Program-made: the position numbers and the translations under genes
Assembly (NCBI GenBank): GCA_018710945.1
Contig: DVIW01000038.1
Span: forward strand, 62,001 to 126,000
Length of the DNA stretch: 64,000 bases
Source of the DNA: Candidatus Aphodovivens avistercoris
GTDB lineage: Bacteria > Actinomycetota > Coriobacteriia > Coriobacteriales > Eggerthellaceae
Direction of reading: 5' to 3'
In this document: in pieces, positions 13,999 to 56,260 of the stretch
How positions within the stretch are numbered: position 1 is the first letter of the stretch
Layout of the letters: each line of letters starts with the position of its first letter
The notes under the pieces: generated by a model
The model's input: only the letters and a program-made list of their open reading frames with translations
Database searches by the model: none
Told to the model about the DNA's origin: nothing

Positions 13999-16293
13999 AT
14001 GAGCTACGCGCAGCGGCTGATCGGGCGCATCCTCGCCGACGAGCGCGCCCGCGGCGGCAAGCTGGCCGACGAGAAGGTCTACCGCGACGAGCCGATCCTG
14101 CGCACCGGGTCCGACCTGCTGAAAGAGCGCCAGCGGGAACAGGCCGTTCTCGCGGGCACCCATGCAGACGCCCGCGTGAACGCTCGCGGAAGCGCGTCGA
14201 ACACCGCCCGCGTCTCCGTCCGCGGACGCGCAGGAAAAGCAGCACAGAGCAGTTCGGCAGCGCGCAGCGGCGGCGGCTGGCGCGCTGCAGCGCGGCCCGA
14301 CGCAGCACCGCGCGACCGCTCCTGGCAGCGCGGCTCAAGCTGGCGCGAAGTGTCCATCCCCCAGCCCGTCGAAGAGCCCTGCGACCTGCCCGCCCCGCTG
14401 GAGCAGCTGCGCGCGCTCGAACGCAAGGCGGACGCACTCATCCTCCCCGAAAGCCGGCTGTTCTTCGACCAGGCGCTGCTGACCGCCGGCTACGAGGACG
14501 ACTTCCGCTACGACGGAAAATTCCACTGCTACTTCCCCACCTACCGGCAGATGAGCGACCAGCAGCTGCGCGGCTACTTCGCCTGGAGGACCGCTTGGCG
14601 GCGCGGACAGCACCGGCAAACGTCGCTGTCGTTCGCGTTCGTGCACCTCTACGAGCTGCTGAACCGCATCGGACCGGACGGCCTGACAGACCCCGAAAGC
14701 GGCTACCGCGCGCTGCAGGCGTTCGCACGCGATTACGGCGCCCTCGACCCGTTCATCAACCGCCACACGACCACGTGGCTGCACGATTACGTCATCTACC
14801 ACGACCTCGACCTGCGCTTGCTTTCCGGAACCACCGATGCCGAGGACGGCAACGTGTTCGCCCTCTTCGCCGCCAAGAGACAGGCTGAAGAAGGGGAAGG
14901 CGAAGCGCCCGAAGCGGCAATCGGCGGAGGAAGCAACGTCGCGGCGCCGGGGGTCCCAAAGGCGCCCTCTGCGGAAGCGCGTGCGAACGCAGCGGCCCGC
15001 ACCGACGAGAACGGGCAGAACGCCGAAAGCGAGCGCAAGCGCGGAGGCGCCGGCGCGCAACCCCTTCCGCACGACGAGGCGCTGGCCGTGCTGCTGCGCG
15101 ACGATCGGGAAGGAAACGTGCCCGATGACGAGCTGTTCGCTGCCCTGGCGTCGCTTTCGGCCTACCGCATCGGGCAGTCGCGGCTTTTGCGCGAGGACGC
15201 GCCCGCTCTGAAGGCGACGGCCTGCAAAACCTGGCGGGCGCTGTCGGCCTACTACCGCGCGCACCGCAAGCGCACGCTGTTCGAGCACCTGTTCGGCGTG
15301 CGCTCGGCCCAGCCCTACCCGATGTTCCGCGCGGCGGTGTTCCATGCGCCCGAGAAGCATCCGGACACCGTGCGCGAGGTCGGCCCCATCTGCCGCTTCG
15401 TCTGCAAGAACGGCCGCTGGACCTGCGAGCGGTTCCATCGCGCCGAAACGCGCAGCCGCGAGCTGGGCGCCGTGCTGAAAGCCGTCGACGCAACGCTGCG
15501 CGAACGGCTGGGGTGCGCGCACCCCTTGAAAGACGCCGCCGTGCCGAAGTACGTGCAGGGCATCATCGACAAGCAGGCGGCGGCGCTTCTGGCCGCCCGC
15601 GACGAGCGGGAAGAGCAGAAGCGGCGCCAGGCGGAAGAGCGCGCCCGCCGCACGGTGTCCATCGACCGCGCGAAGCTGCAGGGCATCCGCCAGGCCGCCG
15701 CCCTCACCTGCGAAGCGCTGCTGGTGGACGAGGAACGCGACGACGGTGCCACGACGTTGGGTGCAACGTTGAAACCAAGCGCGGTGCCGCAGGTCGGAGG
15801 AGGCGGCGAAGCGGAAGGGGGAACCCGTCCAAGCTCCGACGCCGAGGCGCACGCGGCAGCGGGGACTTCCGCAGCAAACGGGACTGCAGCAGCGATTCAA
15901 CCCGAAGCGGCGCACGCCGACGCCCGTGACGGCAACGGCAACCCAAGCGCCAGCGCGCCCGCGCAGCAAGGCGGCAATGCCCGAGCCGGCACCGTGCCCG
16001 CCGCCGCCCCGTCCGCTCTCGCCGCCGCAAGCGCCGCCAACACGCCCAACCCCGCCGGCCCGCTTTCCCCCGCGGAGGCCACCTACGTACGTTGCCTGCT
16101 GGCAGGCGCACCGGCAACCGAGCGCAAAGCGGCGGCGCAGGCGGCGGGCGTTCCCGAGTCGATGATGATGGACGCCATCAACGAGAAGCTGTTCGACGAG
16201 CTGGGCGATGTCGCCTTGGAGGAAGGCGCCGACGGCCCGCGCGTCGTGGAGGATTACGAAGAAGACGTGAGAGGAATCGTGCAAGCATGCTAG
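13999..16293 (+). CDS. TerB-N/TerB-C domain protein, first gene of a putative DNA-processing or defence operon
   Basis: A 764-residue protein; the ATG at 13999 has GGAGGTGG upstream. Residues about 130-270 match the TerB-N domain: SRLFFDQALLTAGYEDDF, FPTYRQMSDQQLRGYFAWRTAWRRG, SLSFAFVHLYELLNRIG. The C-terminus (MMMDAINEKLFDELGDVALEE ... VEDYEEDVRGI) matches TerB-C. Long Ala/Glu-rich linkers lie near 305-355 and 610-690. Established work links such TerB proteins with P-loop ATPases and helicases in Ter-type stress and DNA-processing loci; the biochemical role is unknown. The stop overlaps the ATPase start by 7 bases. Confidence 0.82.
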   Translation: MSYAQRLIGRILADERARGGKLADEKVYRDEPILRTGSDLLKERQREQAVLAGTHADARVNARGSASNTARVSVRGRAGKAAQSSSAARSGGGWRAAARPDAAPRDRSWQRGSSWREVSIPQPVEEPCDLPAPLEQLRALERKADALILPESRLFFDQALLTAGYEDDFRYDGKFHCYFPTYRQMSDQQLRGYFAWRTAWRRGQHRQTSLSFAFVHLYELLNRIGPDGLTDPESGYRALQAFARDYGALDPFINRHTTTWLHDYVIYHDLDLRLLSGTTDAEDGNVFALFAAKRQAEEGEGEAPEAAIGGGSNVAAPGVPKAPSAEARANAAARTDENGQNAESERKRGGAGAQPLPHDEALAVLLRDDREGNVPDDELFAALASLSAYRIGQSRLLREDAPALKATACKTWRALSAYYRAHRKRTLFEHLFGVRSAQPYPMFRAAVFHAPEKHPDTVREVGPICRFVCKNGRWTCERFHRAETRSRELGAVLKAVDATLRERLGCAHPLKDAAVPKYVQGIIDKQAAALLAARDEREEQKRRQAEERARRTVSIDRAKLQGIRQAAALTCEALLVDEERDDGATTLGATLKPSAVPQVGGGGEAEGGTRPSSDAEAHAAAGTSAANGTAAAIQPEAAHADARDGNGNPSASAPAQQGGNARAGTVPAAAPSALAAASAANTPNPAGPLSPAEATYVRCLLAGAPATERKAAAQAAGVPESMMMDAINEKLFDELGDVALEEGADGPRVVEDYEEDVRGIVQAC

Positions 16294-17678
16294 ACAGCGC
16301 ATCCGCACCCCGGCCCAAAGTCCCCCGTCGCGTGGCGGCGGTCATCGTCAACTCGCTGAAGGGCGGCGTGGTGCCGCGCATCGGGCTGCCCTACATCACC
16401 GTGGGCCGCGAGCGCGAGATCCAGGCACTCCTGCACGATCTGGACCTCACCGCCGACGGCGGCGCCTCGTTCCGCTTCCTGGTGGGCCGTTACGGCAGCG
16501 GCAAGAGCTTCCTTTTACAGACCATCCGCAACCACGCCATGGGCAACGGCTTCGTGGTGTGCGACGCCGACCTCTCGCCCGAGCGCCGCCTGCAGGGCAC
16601 GCGCGGCCAGGGGCTGGCCACCTACCGCGAGCTCGTCCGCAACCTCTCCACCAAGACACGACCCGAAGGCGGGGCGCTCAACCTCGTGCTGGACCGCTGG
16701 GTGGCCGCCACGACGGAGGGCGGCACCTTCGCAGAAGGCGACGCCGCACGCGCCGACGCGCTGGTGGACGCGCAGATGGCGCCACTCGAAGAGCTGGTGC
16801 ACGGGTTCGACTTCTCGCGCATGGTGCGCCGCTACCGCGCCGCCGCACTGGAGGGCGACGACGAGACGATGGGCAACGTGGTGAAATGGCTCCGCGGCGA
16901 GTACCGCACCAAGACCGAGGCGCGCCAGGAGCTGGGAGCGACCGCCATCATCACCGATGACGACTGGTACGACTACCTGAAGCTGTTCGCCGCGTTCTTG
17001 GTGGGCGCGGGCTACAAGGGGCTGCTGGTGCTCATCGACGAGCTGGTCAACCTTTACAAGATCCCCAACGCCGTCACGCGCCAGTACAACTACGAGAAGA
17101 TCCTGACCATGTACAACGACACCTTGCAGGGCAAGGCGCGCCACCTGGGCATCATCATGGGCGGCACCCCGCAGTCCATCGAGGACCGCCGCCGCGGCAT
17201 CTACAGCTACGAGGCCCTGCGCAGCCGCCTGGCGCAGGGGCGTTTCGCCCAGGAAGGGCTCGCCGACCTGCTGGCGCCCGTCATCCACCTGGAGCCGCTC
17301 ACTTACGAGGAGCTGCTGGTGCTCATCGAGAAGCTGGCCGACATCCATGCCGGGCTGTTCGGCTACGAGCGAACGCTGACCGAAGACGACCTGGTGGCGT
17401 TTCTGCGCATCGAGTTCGGGCGCGTGGGGGCCGACACGCACCTCACCCCGCGCGAGGTCATCCGCGACTTCATCGAGCTTCTGGACATCGTGAGCCAGAA
17501 CCCGCAGGTGAGCGTGGCCGATCTGCTGGAATCAGACGATTTCGCCTACGCCCAACCCGCCGAGCCCGGAACGCGCGAGGCAGCTCCCGCCGCGCTGCAC
17601 GTGCCCGCTGCGACCGGCCCGTCCGGCACCCGCACGCCGGCAGAGAGCGGCAGCCCCTACGCGGAGTTCACGCTGTAG
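16287..17678 (+). CDS. BrxD-like P-loop ATPase (BREX-associated family)
   Basis: A 463-residue protein. Walker A is GRYGSGKS (residues 67-74) and Walker B is LLVLIDELVNLY near 246-257. The long conserved segments (GRYGSGKSFLLQTIRNHAMG and LGIIMGGTPQSIEDRRRGIYSYEALRSRL) are those of the BrxD/DUF2791 ATP-binding family found in type 2 BREX and related loci. It probably uses ATP to load or regulate the helicase encoded next. Family members lie beside Lhr-like helicases in known phage-defence islands. The C-terminal 30 residues are a low-complexity tail. Confidence 0.85.
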   Translation: MLDSASAPRPKVPRRVAAVIVNSLKGGVVPRIGLPYITVGREREIQALLHDLDLTADGGASFRFLVGRYGSGKSFLLQTIRNHAMGNGFVVCDADLSPERRLQGTRGQGLATYRELVRNLSTKTRPEGGALNLVLDRWVAATTEGGTFAEGDAARADALVDAQMAPLEELVHGFDFSRMVRRYRAAALEGDDETMGNVVKWLRGEYRTKTEARQELGATAIITDDDWYDYLKLFAAFLVGAGYKGLLVLIDELVNLYKIPNAVTRQYNYEKILTMYNDTLQGKARHLGIIMGGTPQSIEDRRRGIYSYEALRSRLAQGRFAQEGLADLLAPVIHLEPLTYEELLVLIEKLADIHAGLFGYERTLTEDDLVAFLRIEFGRVGADTHLTPREVIRDFIELLDIVSQNPQVSVADLLESDDFAYAQPAEPGTREAAPAALHVPAATGPSGTRTPAESGSPYAEFTL

Positions 17679-17729
17679 ACCGCCCTCCGAAGCCGCACCG
17701 CACGCGAAACGGGAAAGGAGCCCCGCCCG

Positions 17730-20168
17730 ATGGGAACGTTCGAGCGCTACGCGCCGTTCATCCAGGACTTCATCTACGAGCACGATTGGGAGAACCTGCG
17801 CGCCATCCAGGTGGCGGCGGCCGACGCCCTGTTCAACACCGACGACAACGTGCTGCTGTGCGCCTCCACCGCATCGGGGAAAACCGAGGCGGCCTTCTTC
17901 CCCATCCTCACCGAGTTTTGGGAAGACCCGCCCCGCTCGGTGGGCGCGCTGTACATCGGGCCGCTGAAAGCCCTCATCAACGACCAGTTCTCGCGTCTGA
18001 CCGACCTGTGCGCCCAGGCCGACATACCCGTATGGCACTGGCACGGCGACGTGGCGGCCTCGCGCAAAGCGCGCCTGATGAAGAACCCTTCGGGCATCCT
18101 GCAGATCACGCCCGAGTCGCTGGAAGCGCTGCTTCTGCGCAAGCATTCGGCCATCGCGCGGCTGTTCGGCGACCTGCGCTACATCGTCATCGACGAGGTG
18201 CACTCGCTTCTGCGCGGCGACCGCGGCGGGCAGACGCTGTGTCTCATCGAGCGCCTGGGCAGGCTGGCGAACGTGAACCCGCGGCGCATCGGGCTGTCGG
18301 CCACCATCGGCGACCCGCAGCTGACCGGCGCCTACCTTGCCGCCGGATCGGGCCGCGGCACGGTGATCCCCCGCATCGAAGCCCCGAAGCGCCCTTGGAG
18401 GCTGTCGATGGAGCACTTCTACGTTTCGGGGCCGCAGGCTGCTGATGACTTCTATCCCGGCCGTTCTCGGGGCGGGGGTCTCGTGCTCAAACAGTCCTGC
18501 TCGCACGAAAGCGCCACTGGCGCTTTCGGCTCGTGCGGAACTGCGCGCGAGACCCCCGCCCCGAGAACGGCTGATGCTGCTGCAGCCTGCGGCCCCGCAA
18601 AAGGAAGTGCTCCTCTTGGAATGGAGATTCAACCTGGGGGCAGCGTTGGGTGGGAAGCGGAAGCACCGACCGACACTGCGCCTGCTGCAGCGGATCCGGG
18701 GTTGGGGTACATCTTCGAGCATACCAAGGGGAAGAAGTGCCTCGTGTTCGTGAACTCGCGCGAAGAGGCCGAGGGCGTGTGCACCTCGCTTCGGCAGTAC
18801 TGCGAGGCGAAGGGCGAGCCCGACCGGTTCCTCATCCATCACGGCAACCTGTCCTCGTCGTTCCGCGAAAGCGCCGAGGATCTGATGAAGGACGACGACT
18901 CGCTGCTGACCACCGTCACCACGGCCACGCTTGAGCTGGGGATAGACATCGGGCGGCTGGAGCGGGCGTTCCAGATCGACGCGCCGTTCACCGTGTCGTC
19001 GTTTTTGCAGCGCATGGGTCGCACCGGCCGGCGCGGCGCCCCGCAGGAGATGTGGTTCGTCATGCGCGAAGAGCAGCCCGAAGCCCGCGCGCAGGTGGCC
19101 GAGAGCATTCCCTGGAAGCTGCTGCAGGGCATCGCGCTCGTCCAGCTGTACGTTGAGGACCGCTGGGTGGAGCCCCCGCGCCTCGACCGGCTGCCCTACA
19201 GCCTGCTTCTGCACCAGACGCTGGCCACGCTGGCCTCGGAAGGCGAGATGTCGCCCGCGGCCCTGGCCTCCCGCGTGCTGCCGCTTGCGCCCTTCCATCG
19301 CGTCACGCAAGACGACTTCCGCCTGCTTCTGCTCCACTTGCTGGAAACCGACCTGATCGAGCGCACGGAGGGCGGCGGGCTCATCGTGGGGCTGGCCGGC
19401 GAGCGCGTGGTGAACTCGTTCAAATTCTACGCCGTGTTCCAAGAGAACGAGGAGTACACCGTCCGCAGCGATTCGCAGGAGATCGGCACCATCGTGCAGC
19501 CGCCGCCCGCCGGCGAGAAGATCGCCATCGCCGGGCACGTGTGGGTGGTGGACGAGGTGGACCACAAGCGGCACCTCGTGTACTGCACCCAGGTGAAGGG
19601 AAAGGTGCCGGCATACTTCGGCGACTGTCCGGGCGACATCAACACGCGCGTGCTGGAACGCATGTGCCAGGCGCTCAAAGAGGACGCGAGCTACCCCTAC
19701 CTGATGCGCAACGCCGTCGCGCGCCTTGCGCTGGCGCGCCACGTTGCGGAAAACGCCGGTTTGGCTGAGCAGCCGCTCGTGAACCTGGGCGGCGACGCCT
19801 GGTGCCTTTTGCCGTGGCTGGGAAGCTACTCGTTCCTGGCGCTGGAGCGCATGTTGAAGCGCCTGGTCGCACCCAAGCTGGGGCTGAAGGGCATCGAGGC
19901 GTCGCGGCCCTACTTCATCCAGTTCAAGATGCCAGATACCGCCGAAGAGCTGCTGGCCGAGCTGGGACGGCTGGCCGACCGCCATGAAGCGGGGCTGCTC
20001 GACCCCATGGAGCTGCTCTATCCCGACGAGATCCCCCTGTTCGAGAAGTACGACGCCCTGCTGCCGCCTGAGCTCGTGCGGCGCGGCTTCGCCTACGGCG
20101 TGCTGGACGTGGAAGGGGCCTGTGCGCGCATTCGCAGCTGGGACGCGCCGCGCCCGCTGCCGCGCTGA
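17730..20168 (+). CDS. Lhr/BrxHI-like superfamily 2 helicase carrying an in-frame palindromic insertion
   Basis: An 812-residue helicase after AAGGAG. Motif I is ASTASGKTEA (about 45-54), motif II is IDEVHSL (about 153), motif III is LSATIGD, and motif VI is QRMGRTGRRG (about 426). The second RecA domain and a winged-helix/Lhr-type C-terminus follow. This is the BrxHI-like partner of the preceding ATPase. Residues about 228-295, between the two RecA domains, are encoded by a nested palindromic element (18410-18613). They are low in complexity (Gly/Ser/Ala/Cys-rich) and have no family counterpart I recognise. The frame stays open, so the gene may still work. Confidence 0.88.
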   Translation: MGTFERYAPFIQDFIYEHDWENLRAIQVAAADALFNTDDNVLLCASTASGKTEAAFFPILTEFWEDPPRSVGALYIGPLKALINDQFSRLTDLCAQADIPVWHWHGDVAASRKARLMKNPSGILQITPESLEALLLRKHSAIARLFGDLRYIVIDEVHSLLRGDRGGQTLCLIERLGRLANVNPRRIGLSATIGDPQLTGAYLAAGSGRGTVIPRIEAPKRPWRLSMEHFYVSGPQAADDFYPGRSRGGGLVLKQSCSHESATGAFGSCGTARETPAPRTADAAAACGPAKGSAPLGMEIQPGGSVGWEAEAPTDTAPAAADPGLGYIFEHTKGKKCLVFVNSREEAEGVCTSLRQYCEAKGEPDRFLIHHGNLSSSFRESAEDLMKDDDSLLTTVTTATLELGIDIGRLERAFQIDAPFTVSSFLQRMGRTGRRGAPQEMWFVMREEQPEARAQVAESIPWKLLQGIALVQLYVEDRWVEPPRLDRLPYSLLLHQTLATLASEGEMSPAALASRVLPLAPFHRVTQDDFRLLLLHLLETDLIERTEGGGLIVGLAGERVVNSFKFYAVFQENEEYTVRSDSQEIGTIVQPPPAGEKIAIAGHVWVVDEVDHKRHLVYCTQVKGKVPAYFGDCPGDINTRVLERMCQALKEDASYPYLMRNAVARLALARHVAENAGLAEQPLVNLGGDAWCLLPWLGSYSFLALERMLKRLVAPKLGLKGIEASRPYFIQFKMPDTAEELLAELGRLADRHEAGLLDPMELLYPDEIPLFEKYDALLPPELVRRGFAYGVLDVEGACARIRSWDAPRPLPR
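18410..18613. repeat. Nested palindromic element, copy 1, inside the helicase gene
   Basis: Arms pair in nested order: GGAGCACTTC (18410-18419) with 18604-18613; GGGGCCGCAGGCTGC (18428-18442) with 18582-18596; a 23-base perfect arm 18461-18483 with 18548-18570; and the inner GAAAGCGCC/GGCGCTTTC stem. On the minus strand the internal-loop strands read GCGCAGTTCCGCACGAGCC and GCAGGACTGTTTGAGCAC, also seen in the copies at 38116-38243 and 49253-49368. Confidence 0.85.
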
Positions 20169-37934: not shown

Positions 37935-38115
37935 ACCCCGCTCCTATCCAACCTGAAACCCCGGTCGCTCGCGAATTCCAAAGAGGGAAAGCCCAGAAGC
38001 AAAAACCGCCTCCAGCCCCATCAACGCCGCAACAACCCCATCCCCCACCCGAGCAGACCACATCACCACTCCAAGAAAGGGGCCACCCCTCCCCATCGGC
38101 TCGCGCCTTCAAGAA

Positions 38116-38243
38116 GGCGCGGCCCCCTCAGGGGCGGGGGCTCGCGCGCAGTTCCGCAGCCCCTTTGGTCGCGATCGCAGATCGCGACCCGCAAAGGGCG
38201 AGGACTGTCTGAGCACGTGCCCCGCCCCTGAGGGGGCCGCGCC
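38116..38243. repeat. Nested palindromic element, copy 2, between argJ and argB
   Basis: Perfect 24-base outer arms are 38116-38139 (GGCGCGGCCCCCTCAGGGGC...) and 38220-38243. The inner stem is CCCTTTG/CAAAGGG plus GTCGCGATC/GATCGCGAC. Internal-loop strands read CTCGCGCGCAGTTCCGCAGC and GCGAGGACTGTCTGAGCAC, matching the copies at 18410-18613 (inverted) and 49253-49368. It lies 31 bases after the argJ stop; the rest of the 340-base gap shows no gene. Confidence 0.85.
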
Positions 38244-38274
38244 CGCCGGCCAAAGGCCGGCGACCAACCGATGA

Positions 38275-49167: not shown

Positions 49168-49252
49168 CTTCCTCTTCCTAACGTTTCGCCTGCCTGCCCC
49201 ACCCCGGACCGGAATGGACAAGGCAGACCGCGCTTTCGACAATGAAAACGTA

Positions 49253-49368
49253 GCCGGCGGCGGTCGGCGGGGCCCGATGCGAGATTCCGCACGAGCCGAA
49301 ACGTCCAGTGGACGTTTCGTGCGAGCCCAGGACTGCCCGAGCAGCGGGCTCCGCCGACCGCCGCCGGC
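49253..49368. repeat. Nested palindromic element, copy 3, between pheS and pheT
   Basis: GCCGGCGGCGGTCGGCGG (49253-49270) pairs perfectly with 49351-49368. The inner stem is CGAAACGTCC/GGACGTTTCG around AGT. Internal-loop strands are TGCGAGATTCCGCACGAGC and GAGCCCAGGACTGCCCGAGC, matching the copies at 18410-18613 and 38116-38243. It starts 8 bases after the pheS stop. Confidence 0.85.
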
Positions 49369-49376
49369 GGACGGCT

Positions 49377-56012: not shown

Positions 56013-56092
56013 GCGCAGACCCTTCCTCTCGTCGTTTGCACGCATCATGCCACAAGTCCGCCGCGCGGGCGGCGCCACCGCGCAGGAAAAGC

Positions 56093-56135
56093 GCAAGGCC
56101 GCGCCGCCGTCGGGGAAACGGCAGCGCGGCCTTGC
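56093..56135 (-). terminator. Terminator of the fixABCX operon
   Basis: GCAAGGCCGCGC (56093-56104) pairs perfectly with GCGCGGCCTTGC (56124-56135); the inner loop also has CCGT/ACGG. The minus strand continues GCTTTTCC. It lies 126 bases past the fixX stop. Confidence 0.7.
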
Positions 56136-56260
56136 ATTGGGGAAGCAGCCGCGACGGCGGGGGACCGCCGCGGCTTTGAATCCGCCCAGCTTGGGTCAGG
56201 CCCCGGATGCGGCGTCCGCGGGGGATGCGGCGCCAAGGAGGGGGGTCGGGGCCGCCTTTC

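Follow-up and report, generated by a model that had tools for sequence, protein, structure and literature searches.

The stretch of DNA analysed here (the window; 64,000 nucleotides of contig DVIW01000038.1 from Candidatus Aphodovivens avistercoris) carries three copies of a palindromic element (Table 1). Two small perfect hairpins, CGCGCCTTCAAGAAGGCGCG (38103-38122) and GCCGGCCAAAGGCCGGC (38242-38261), adjoin copy 1, one on each side. Copy 2 is inserted in frame in a coding sequence and not between genes; its host, a gene for a DEAD-box helicase, follows a BrxC/D ATPase gene, and the two (16092-20168) form a BREX-like pair. The helicase occurs widely among Coriobacteriia (168 of 398 genomes), and the element falls within one of its variable linkers. 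The window also contains an FMN riboswitch (RF00050; 731-907, + strand, 80 bits) and, at 56087-56178 on the - strand, a match to the Streptomyces sRNA family Scr3202 (RF02833), barely over the cut-off and here outside Streptomyces. The original prediction was that the three palindromes form a family with common loop strands, and with outer and inner stems that differ completely in sequence while remaining self-complementary. The family is real, each copy folding as DNA much more stably than chance would allow (z of about -9.5, -9.6 and -5.4 for copies 1, 2 and 3, respectively), and the outer stems are indeed unrelated in sequence across all three copies, yet complementary. The loop strands of copy 3, however, are the variants GATGCGAGATTCCGCA and GGACTGCCCGAGCA, and the inner stems are less diverse than was claimed, those of copies 2 and 3 being similar (CGAGCCGAAA...) and that of copy 1 distinct. 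The outer pairing of copy 2 continues beyond 18459-18571, out to 18410-18613, in a weaker form.

Table 1. Features of the three copies of the palindromic element in the window
Feature	Position	Strand	Remarks
Copy 1, outer 5' arm	38116-38142	+	Locus-specific; pairs with 38216-38243
Copy 1, conserved loop strand CGCGCGCAGTTCCGCA	38143-38158	+	
Copy 1, inner hairpin	38159-38199	+	10-bp perfect stem GGTCGCGATC/GATCGCGACC inside a longer stem
Copy 1, conserved loop strand GGACTGTCTGAGCA	38202-38215	+	
Copy 1, outer 3' arm	38216-38243	+	
Copy 2, whole element	about 18459-18571	-	In frame within helicase ORF 17730-20168 (+)
Copy 2, conserved loop strands	18534-18548 and 18484-18497	-	
Copy 2, extended stem, left side	18410-18458	+	Host helicase codons (..MEHFYVSGPQA..)
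Copy 2, extended stem, right side	18572-18613	+	Inverted copy of host helicase codons
Copy 3	about 49253-49369; 49250-49373 including feet	+	pheS-pheT spacer, antisense to operon
Copy 3, feet	GTAG at 49250-49253; GGAC at about 49369-49373	+	Flank arms and core
Copy 3, variant loop strand ...GAGATTCCGCA	49280-49291 (ends approximate)	+	
Copy 3, loop strand GGACTGCCCGAGCA	49330-49343	+	

The further copies anticipated in related genomes were found by pattern searches, both in the 2.45 Mb home genome (G000) and in other Coriobacteriia. In the home genome, the pattern of the second loop strand gave 17 matches, compared with none for the reversed control; 15 of these are genuine (complete copies or copies at contig ends) and two (L008 and L016) are due to chance, giving a family of about 15 copies. 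Their conserved core of 65-75 bp consists of an inner hairpin flanked by the asymmetric loop strands CGCGCAGTTCCGCA / GGACTGTTTGAGCA, together with about 10 bp of adjoining stem, the order in the aligned home-genome copies being CGCGCGCAGTTCCGCA, inner hairpin, AGGACTGTTTGAGCACG. The outer arms (median 25 bp in 147 copies, extending to 45-83 bp in a MAG of Bdellovibrionales) are unrelated from copy to copy, even where the cores are identical, yet complementary; L002, L005 and L007, for example, share identical 70-nt cores and have unrelated arms. When the 13 complete home-genome copies were aligned, both sides had changed in 29 of 42 pairs and the covariation score was 0.466, compared with 0.164 after shuffling. 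None of 500 shuffles reached this value, the same was true of every measure of covariation, and the signal was lost once the pairing was shifted by one column, so that the covariation first suspected from three copies now has statistical support. The inner stem is nearly all Watson-Crick (1230 pairs, 6 G.T, 9 A.C), and in short copies from closed Eggerthellaceae genomes the inner hairpin is commonly the minimal GC-GNA-GC (36 of 39 by our own tally with a looser pattern); GNA mini-hairpins are unusually stable in DNA. One element sequence of G001, which is of the same genus as G000, recurs in record DVKR01 (Candidatus Aphodovivens excrementavium). Two copies, L001 and L014 (about 1350-1640), are composites in which a complete unit is nested within the apex of another; the linkers of these composites, GGCACCG[TC]GCCAAGCGG and GCT[TC]CAAGCAG, are alike at the two loci.

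Exact-pattern matches were present in 13 of 60 relatives, spanning several families, and within one Coriobacteriaceae-like genus 35 of the 45 genomes had them; Coriobacteriia other than the home genome have 0-29 copies per genome, and closed Eggerthellaceae genomes have 6-29 copies each with the looser pattern, one genome having none. When 84,980 species genomes were scanned, the matches listed were mostly from Coriobacteriia, with others in MAGs of Bdellovibrionales, Deltaproteobacteria, Omnitrophota, Hydrogenedentota and Chloroflexi; chance accounts for a few of these 116 listed matches (e.g. those in Limisphaerales, Bacteroidales and Nocardia, which have no arms). Collections of viruses, phages and plasmids yielded no copies, and a search of the literature for the loop sequence or for Coriobacteriia palindromes returned nothing. 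A subset of copies has a near-constant span of 114-120 bp. A GNAG 5' foot is found in 35 of 105 copies against a background of 1.9 % (GTAG in 12, GGAG in 6), although most copies are without it, and a GGAC 3' foot in 19 of 105. Terminal inverted repeats common to the copies were not detected, the outer arms being different in each copy and the short feet recurring in the subset only.

The behaviour of single loci in close relatives bears directly on how the arms arise. Where the flanks of a locus have diverged by 1-10 % within the Coriobacteriaceae-like genus, its alleles have the same loops and different arms; L275 and L282, for instance, with flanks 3.5 % diverged, differ by eight both-arm and no one-arm changes in 24 pairs. 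Over all comparable same-locus allele pairs, both-arm changes outnumbered one-arm changes 252:87, totals that are descriptive given that pairwise counts with common ancestry are non-independent, and 113 of the 252 (45 %) were transversions, which means that these changes were not routed via a G.U pair. Sampling by loop pattern builds in apparent loop conservation, and the 20 alleles of locus B, retrieved via flanking DNA, therefore provide an independent check: the 20 genomes differ little in their loops, yet five or more types of arm occur among them, and in nearly all of these the two arms are complementary. Arms and core move independently of each other, since L323 has arms nearly the same as those of L320 and a different inner hairpin. 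Chimeric alleles, with left and right arms from different alleles (L271, L274, L279 (single-contig genome G186) and L301), reflect either recombination at the core or an assembly fault; palindromes assemble poorly in MAGs. At one locus, the core of L268 is inverted relative to the flanks when compared with L278 and L280, the outermost arms being similar. Copy 2 shows that an arm may extend into host sequence, its extended stem containing an inverted copy of the conserved helicase codons MEHFYVSGPQA that, among 33 orthologues, is found only in G000 and in the coreless allele of G002; the window allele gives the best inverted match of the 33 (0 of 100 shuffles). The both-arm changes in the distal stem, often transversions with few intermediates, together with this inverted host copy, argue for copying and not for stepwise selected compensation. 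The original view of compensatory change as a mark of structural selection holds for the loops, the inner hairpin and the core-proximal stem of about 10 bp, and fails for the distal arms, where both sides change together.

The region adjoining the core is also distinguished by strand. Among 178 non-redundant copies, mismatches of the G.T type outnumbered those of the A.C type 133:14 within 10 bp of the core, compared with 65:62 farther out. Were a palindrome to have no strand-specific role, the two types should by symmetry be equally frequent, and from an excess confined to the vicinity of the core we infer that the AGTTCC strand is recognised in single-stranded form, through its loops, inner hairpin and proximal stem, and that the distal arms are not recognised, although part of the excess may represent inherited wobble pairs. 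An overall G.U bias was considered as a sign of RNA selection and was dropped because the bias is confined to these 10 bp. The orientation of the loop strand favours the lagging sense, 90:52 overall and 68:26 in five closed Eggerthellaceae genomes, with no bias in the Coriobacteriaceae-like genus (in these counts genome lengths were rounded and dnaA was assumed to mark the origin). This hints at a tie to replication, the direction of the bias being the reverse of what an IS608-like element using the lagging template should show.

On balance, we think that the element is probably a non-coding, non-autonomous REP/MITE-like mobile hairpin that is recognised as single-stranded DNA and has arms generated and restored by template switching. 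The recognised part would be the fold that one DNA strand adopts over the inner hairpin, both loop strands and the nearest 10 bp or so of stem, and a putative enzyme or transposase would move the element in trans. The distal arms, not being recognised by sequence, would be made and kept complementary at the DNA level: replication may stall at the hairpin, the nascent strand would switch template, so that each flank or arm can be synthesised as a reverse-complement copy of its partner, and recombination between copies may assist. A change in one arm would then be either erased or copied into the other, with the predicted outcome of locus-specific arms, possible extension into host sequence and concerted drift around fixed loops. 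A single template-switching event is known to suffice for creating, maintaining or repairing a perfect hairpin (PMC8794818). The fixed feet and near-constant span of some copies go beyond what template switching alone predicts. Also against this account, no transposase gene recurs in the neighbourhood of the element and Y1 transposases do not follow copy number.

That the palindrome is mobile, one of the two possibilities raised originally, is borne out by its multiple dispersed copies, by empty sites in relatives, by insertion within a gene and by nesting. The scarcity of copies between divergent genes, for which counts are given below, also favours the preferred reading. The pheS-pheT spacer carries the element in G000, G005, G007, G021, G023 and G028, is only 16 nt long in G002, a member of the same genus, and contains other palindromes instead in G001, G032 and others. 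The pheS-pheT spacers of four relatives' loci (L177, L178, L184 and L188) hold palindromes of another family, unrelated to this one, whose arms are likewise specific to the locus and in which the sequences GACGCTGCG..., GTACCGAAGTACGC and ...CTCGCTGACTT recur. Locus A is filled in six relatives and empty in 16, and its empty allele has a short hairpin, the stem of which (GGTGGCGGAG/CTCCGCC) is identical to the outer portion of the arms in the filled allele. None of the filled and empty pairs displays a clean transposition target site, empty locus A differing also by an indel to the left of the element. The main rival explanation is that the core with about 10 bp of stem is alone mobile and inserts into the loops of host hairpins, such as terminators, so that the distal arms are simply the host hairpin. 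We regard this as unlikely, yet it accounts equally well for locus A, for coreless G002 with its inverted repeat at the helicase site and for units nested in the apex of others (L001 and L014), and it agrees with the inverted core within similar outermost arms (L268 versus L280) and with the lack of strand bias in distal arms. It leaves unexplained, however, the hypervariable arms at a locus that is always filled, which vary among close relatives, and the fixed GNAG/GGAC feet and near-constant span of the subset. Moreover, an empty allele could have arisen from a filled one by internal deletion, and the 45-83 bp arms of the Bdellovibrionales MAG exceed the length of terminators.

The other possibility raised originally, an RNA fold, is represented by the explanation that the element is a structured RNA, or a cis-regulatory or terminator element, under selection for its fold, which we consider improbable and weaker than insertion into hairpins. 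The covariation is very strong, G.U pairs are tolerated beside the core, and copies are mostly intergenic and away from divergent promoters (8 have divergent, 30 convergent and 97 codirectional neighbouring genes by rough gene calls) and occur in the pheS-pheT spacer of several genera, all of which would suit an RNA. Orientation is nevertheless independent of transcription, sense and antisense placement being about equal (42 versus 55) and both orientations being found at pheS-pheT; the distal arms have no G.U preference, the element is absent from the pheS-pheT spacers of close relatives, and one copy lies inside a coding gene. Rfam 15 gave no family at the gathering threshold and, at a permissive threshold, only sub-threshold miRNA-type matches, none credible. 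The antisense placement of all three window copies, tried as a family rule, was not general across copies. Least probable, and likewise weaker than insertion into hairpins, is that this is a GTAG-type REP family mobilised by the RAYT (Y1) transposase whose association had been suggested originally, since, despite the GTAG/GNAG 5' foot of the subset (GTAG in copy 3) and a REP-like genomic placement (PMC3733652), Y1 hits do not track copies (there is no correlation with copy number in 60 relatives, and G198, with about 19 copies, lacks any Y1 gene), the Y1 genes inspected are without flanking copies, the stems are unconserved within a genome, and the length and loops are unlike those of REPs. 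More generally, no transposase or other specific gene recurred around the loci found in the 60 relatives and in the scan of species genomes, where only generic ATPases and the pheST locus did so.

A bolder form of the preferred reading, that of a mobile hairpin with copied arms, is that the element represents a distinct class found in several phyla, in which only the loops are recognised in single-stranded DNA, the arms are inverted copies of the flanks and insertion itself creates a locus-specific palindrome; we put this forward as a tentative suggestion. Strong stem covariation is usually taken as proof of functional RNA, and the present element has strong covariation that includes hypervariable arms at a single locus, most of the stem being better explained by copying of DNA. 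It offers a natural system in which to test template switching and a warning to those who use covariation to discover RNAs, and it may be a mobile element of gut Coriobacteriia that is recognised as single-stranded DNA.

Integron attC sites are recognised via unpaired bases and shape, their stems being variable. Recognition of the present element is presumed to be similar, although its loop sequences are strongly conserved and no cassette arrays were seen. The GTAG/CGTC-tagged REPs (Di Nocera et al., 2013; PMC3733652) are likewise dispersed extragenic palindromes, some of them within genes, with mainly convergent or codirectional gene neighbours and a 5' foot that the GTAG-like foot of our subset resembles; they are, however, 20-40 bp long compared with about 115-120 bp, whereas the element described here has two conserved internal loop strands, arms that are unrelated within a genome, a low copy number and no RAYT link that we could find. 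The ends of IS200/IS605 elements and other single-stranded DNA hairpins recognised by HUH enzymes (PMC6006769) are similar in having a strand-specific hairpin and a foot tetranucleotide (here in a subset), but our element lacks a linked Y1 gene and its lagging-strand bias is partial and of opposite sense. Template-switch hairpin mutations (Monttinen & Loytynoja, 2022; PMC8794818) and quasipalindrome mutations in E. coli (PMC7202029) share with it the one-step both-arm changes, the perfect stems and the reverse-complement copies of nearby sequence; those represent a mutational process, whereas here such a process would operate again and again on the members of a dispersed family and shape their arms.
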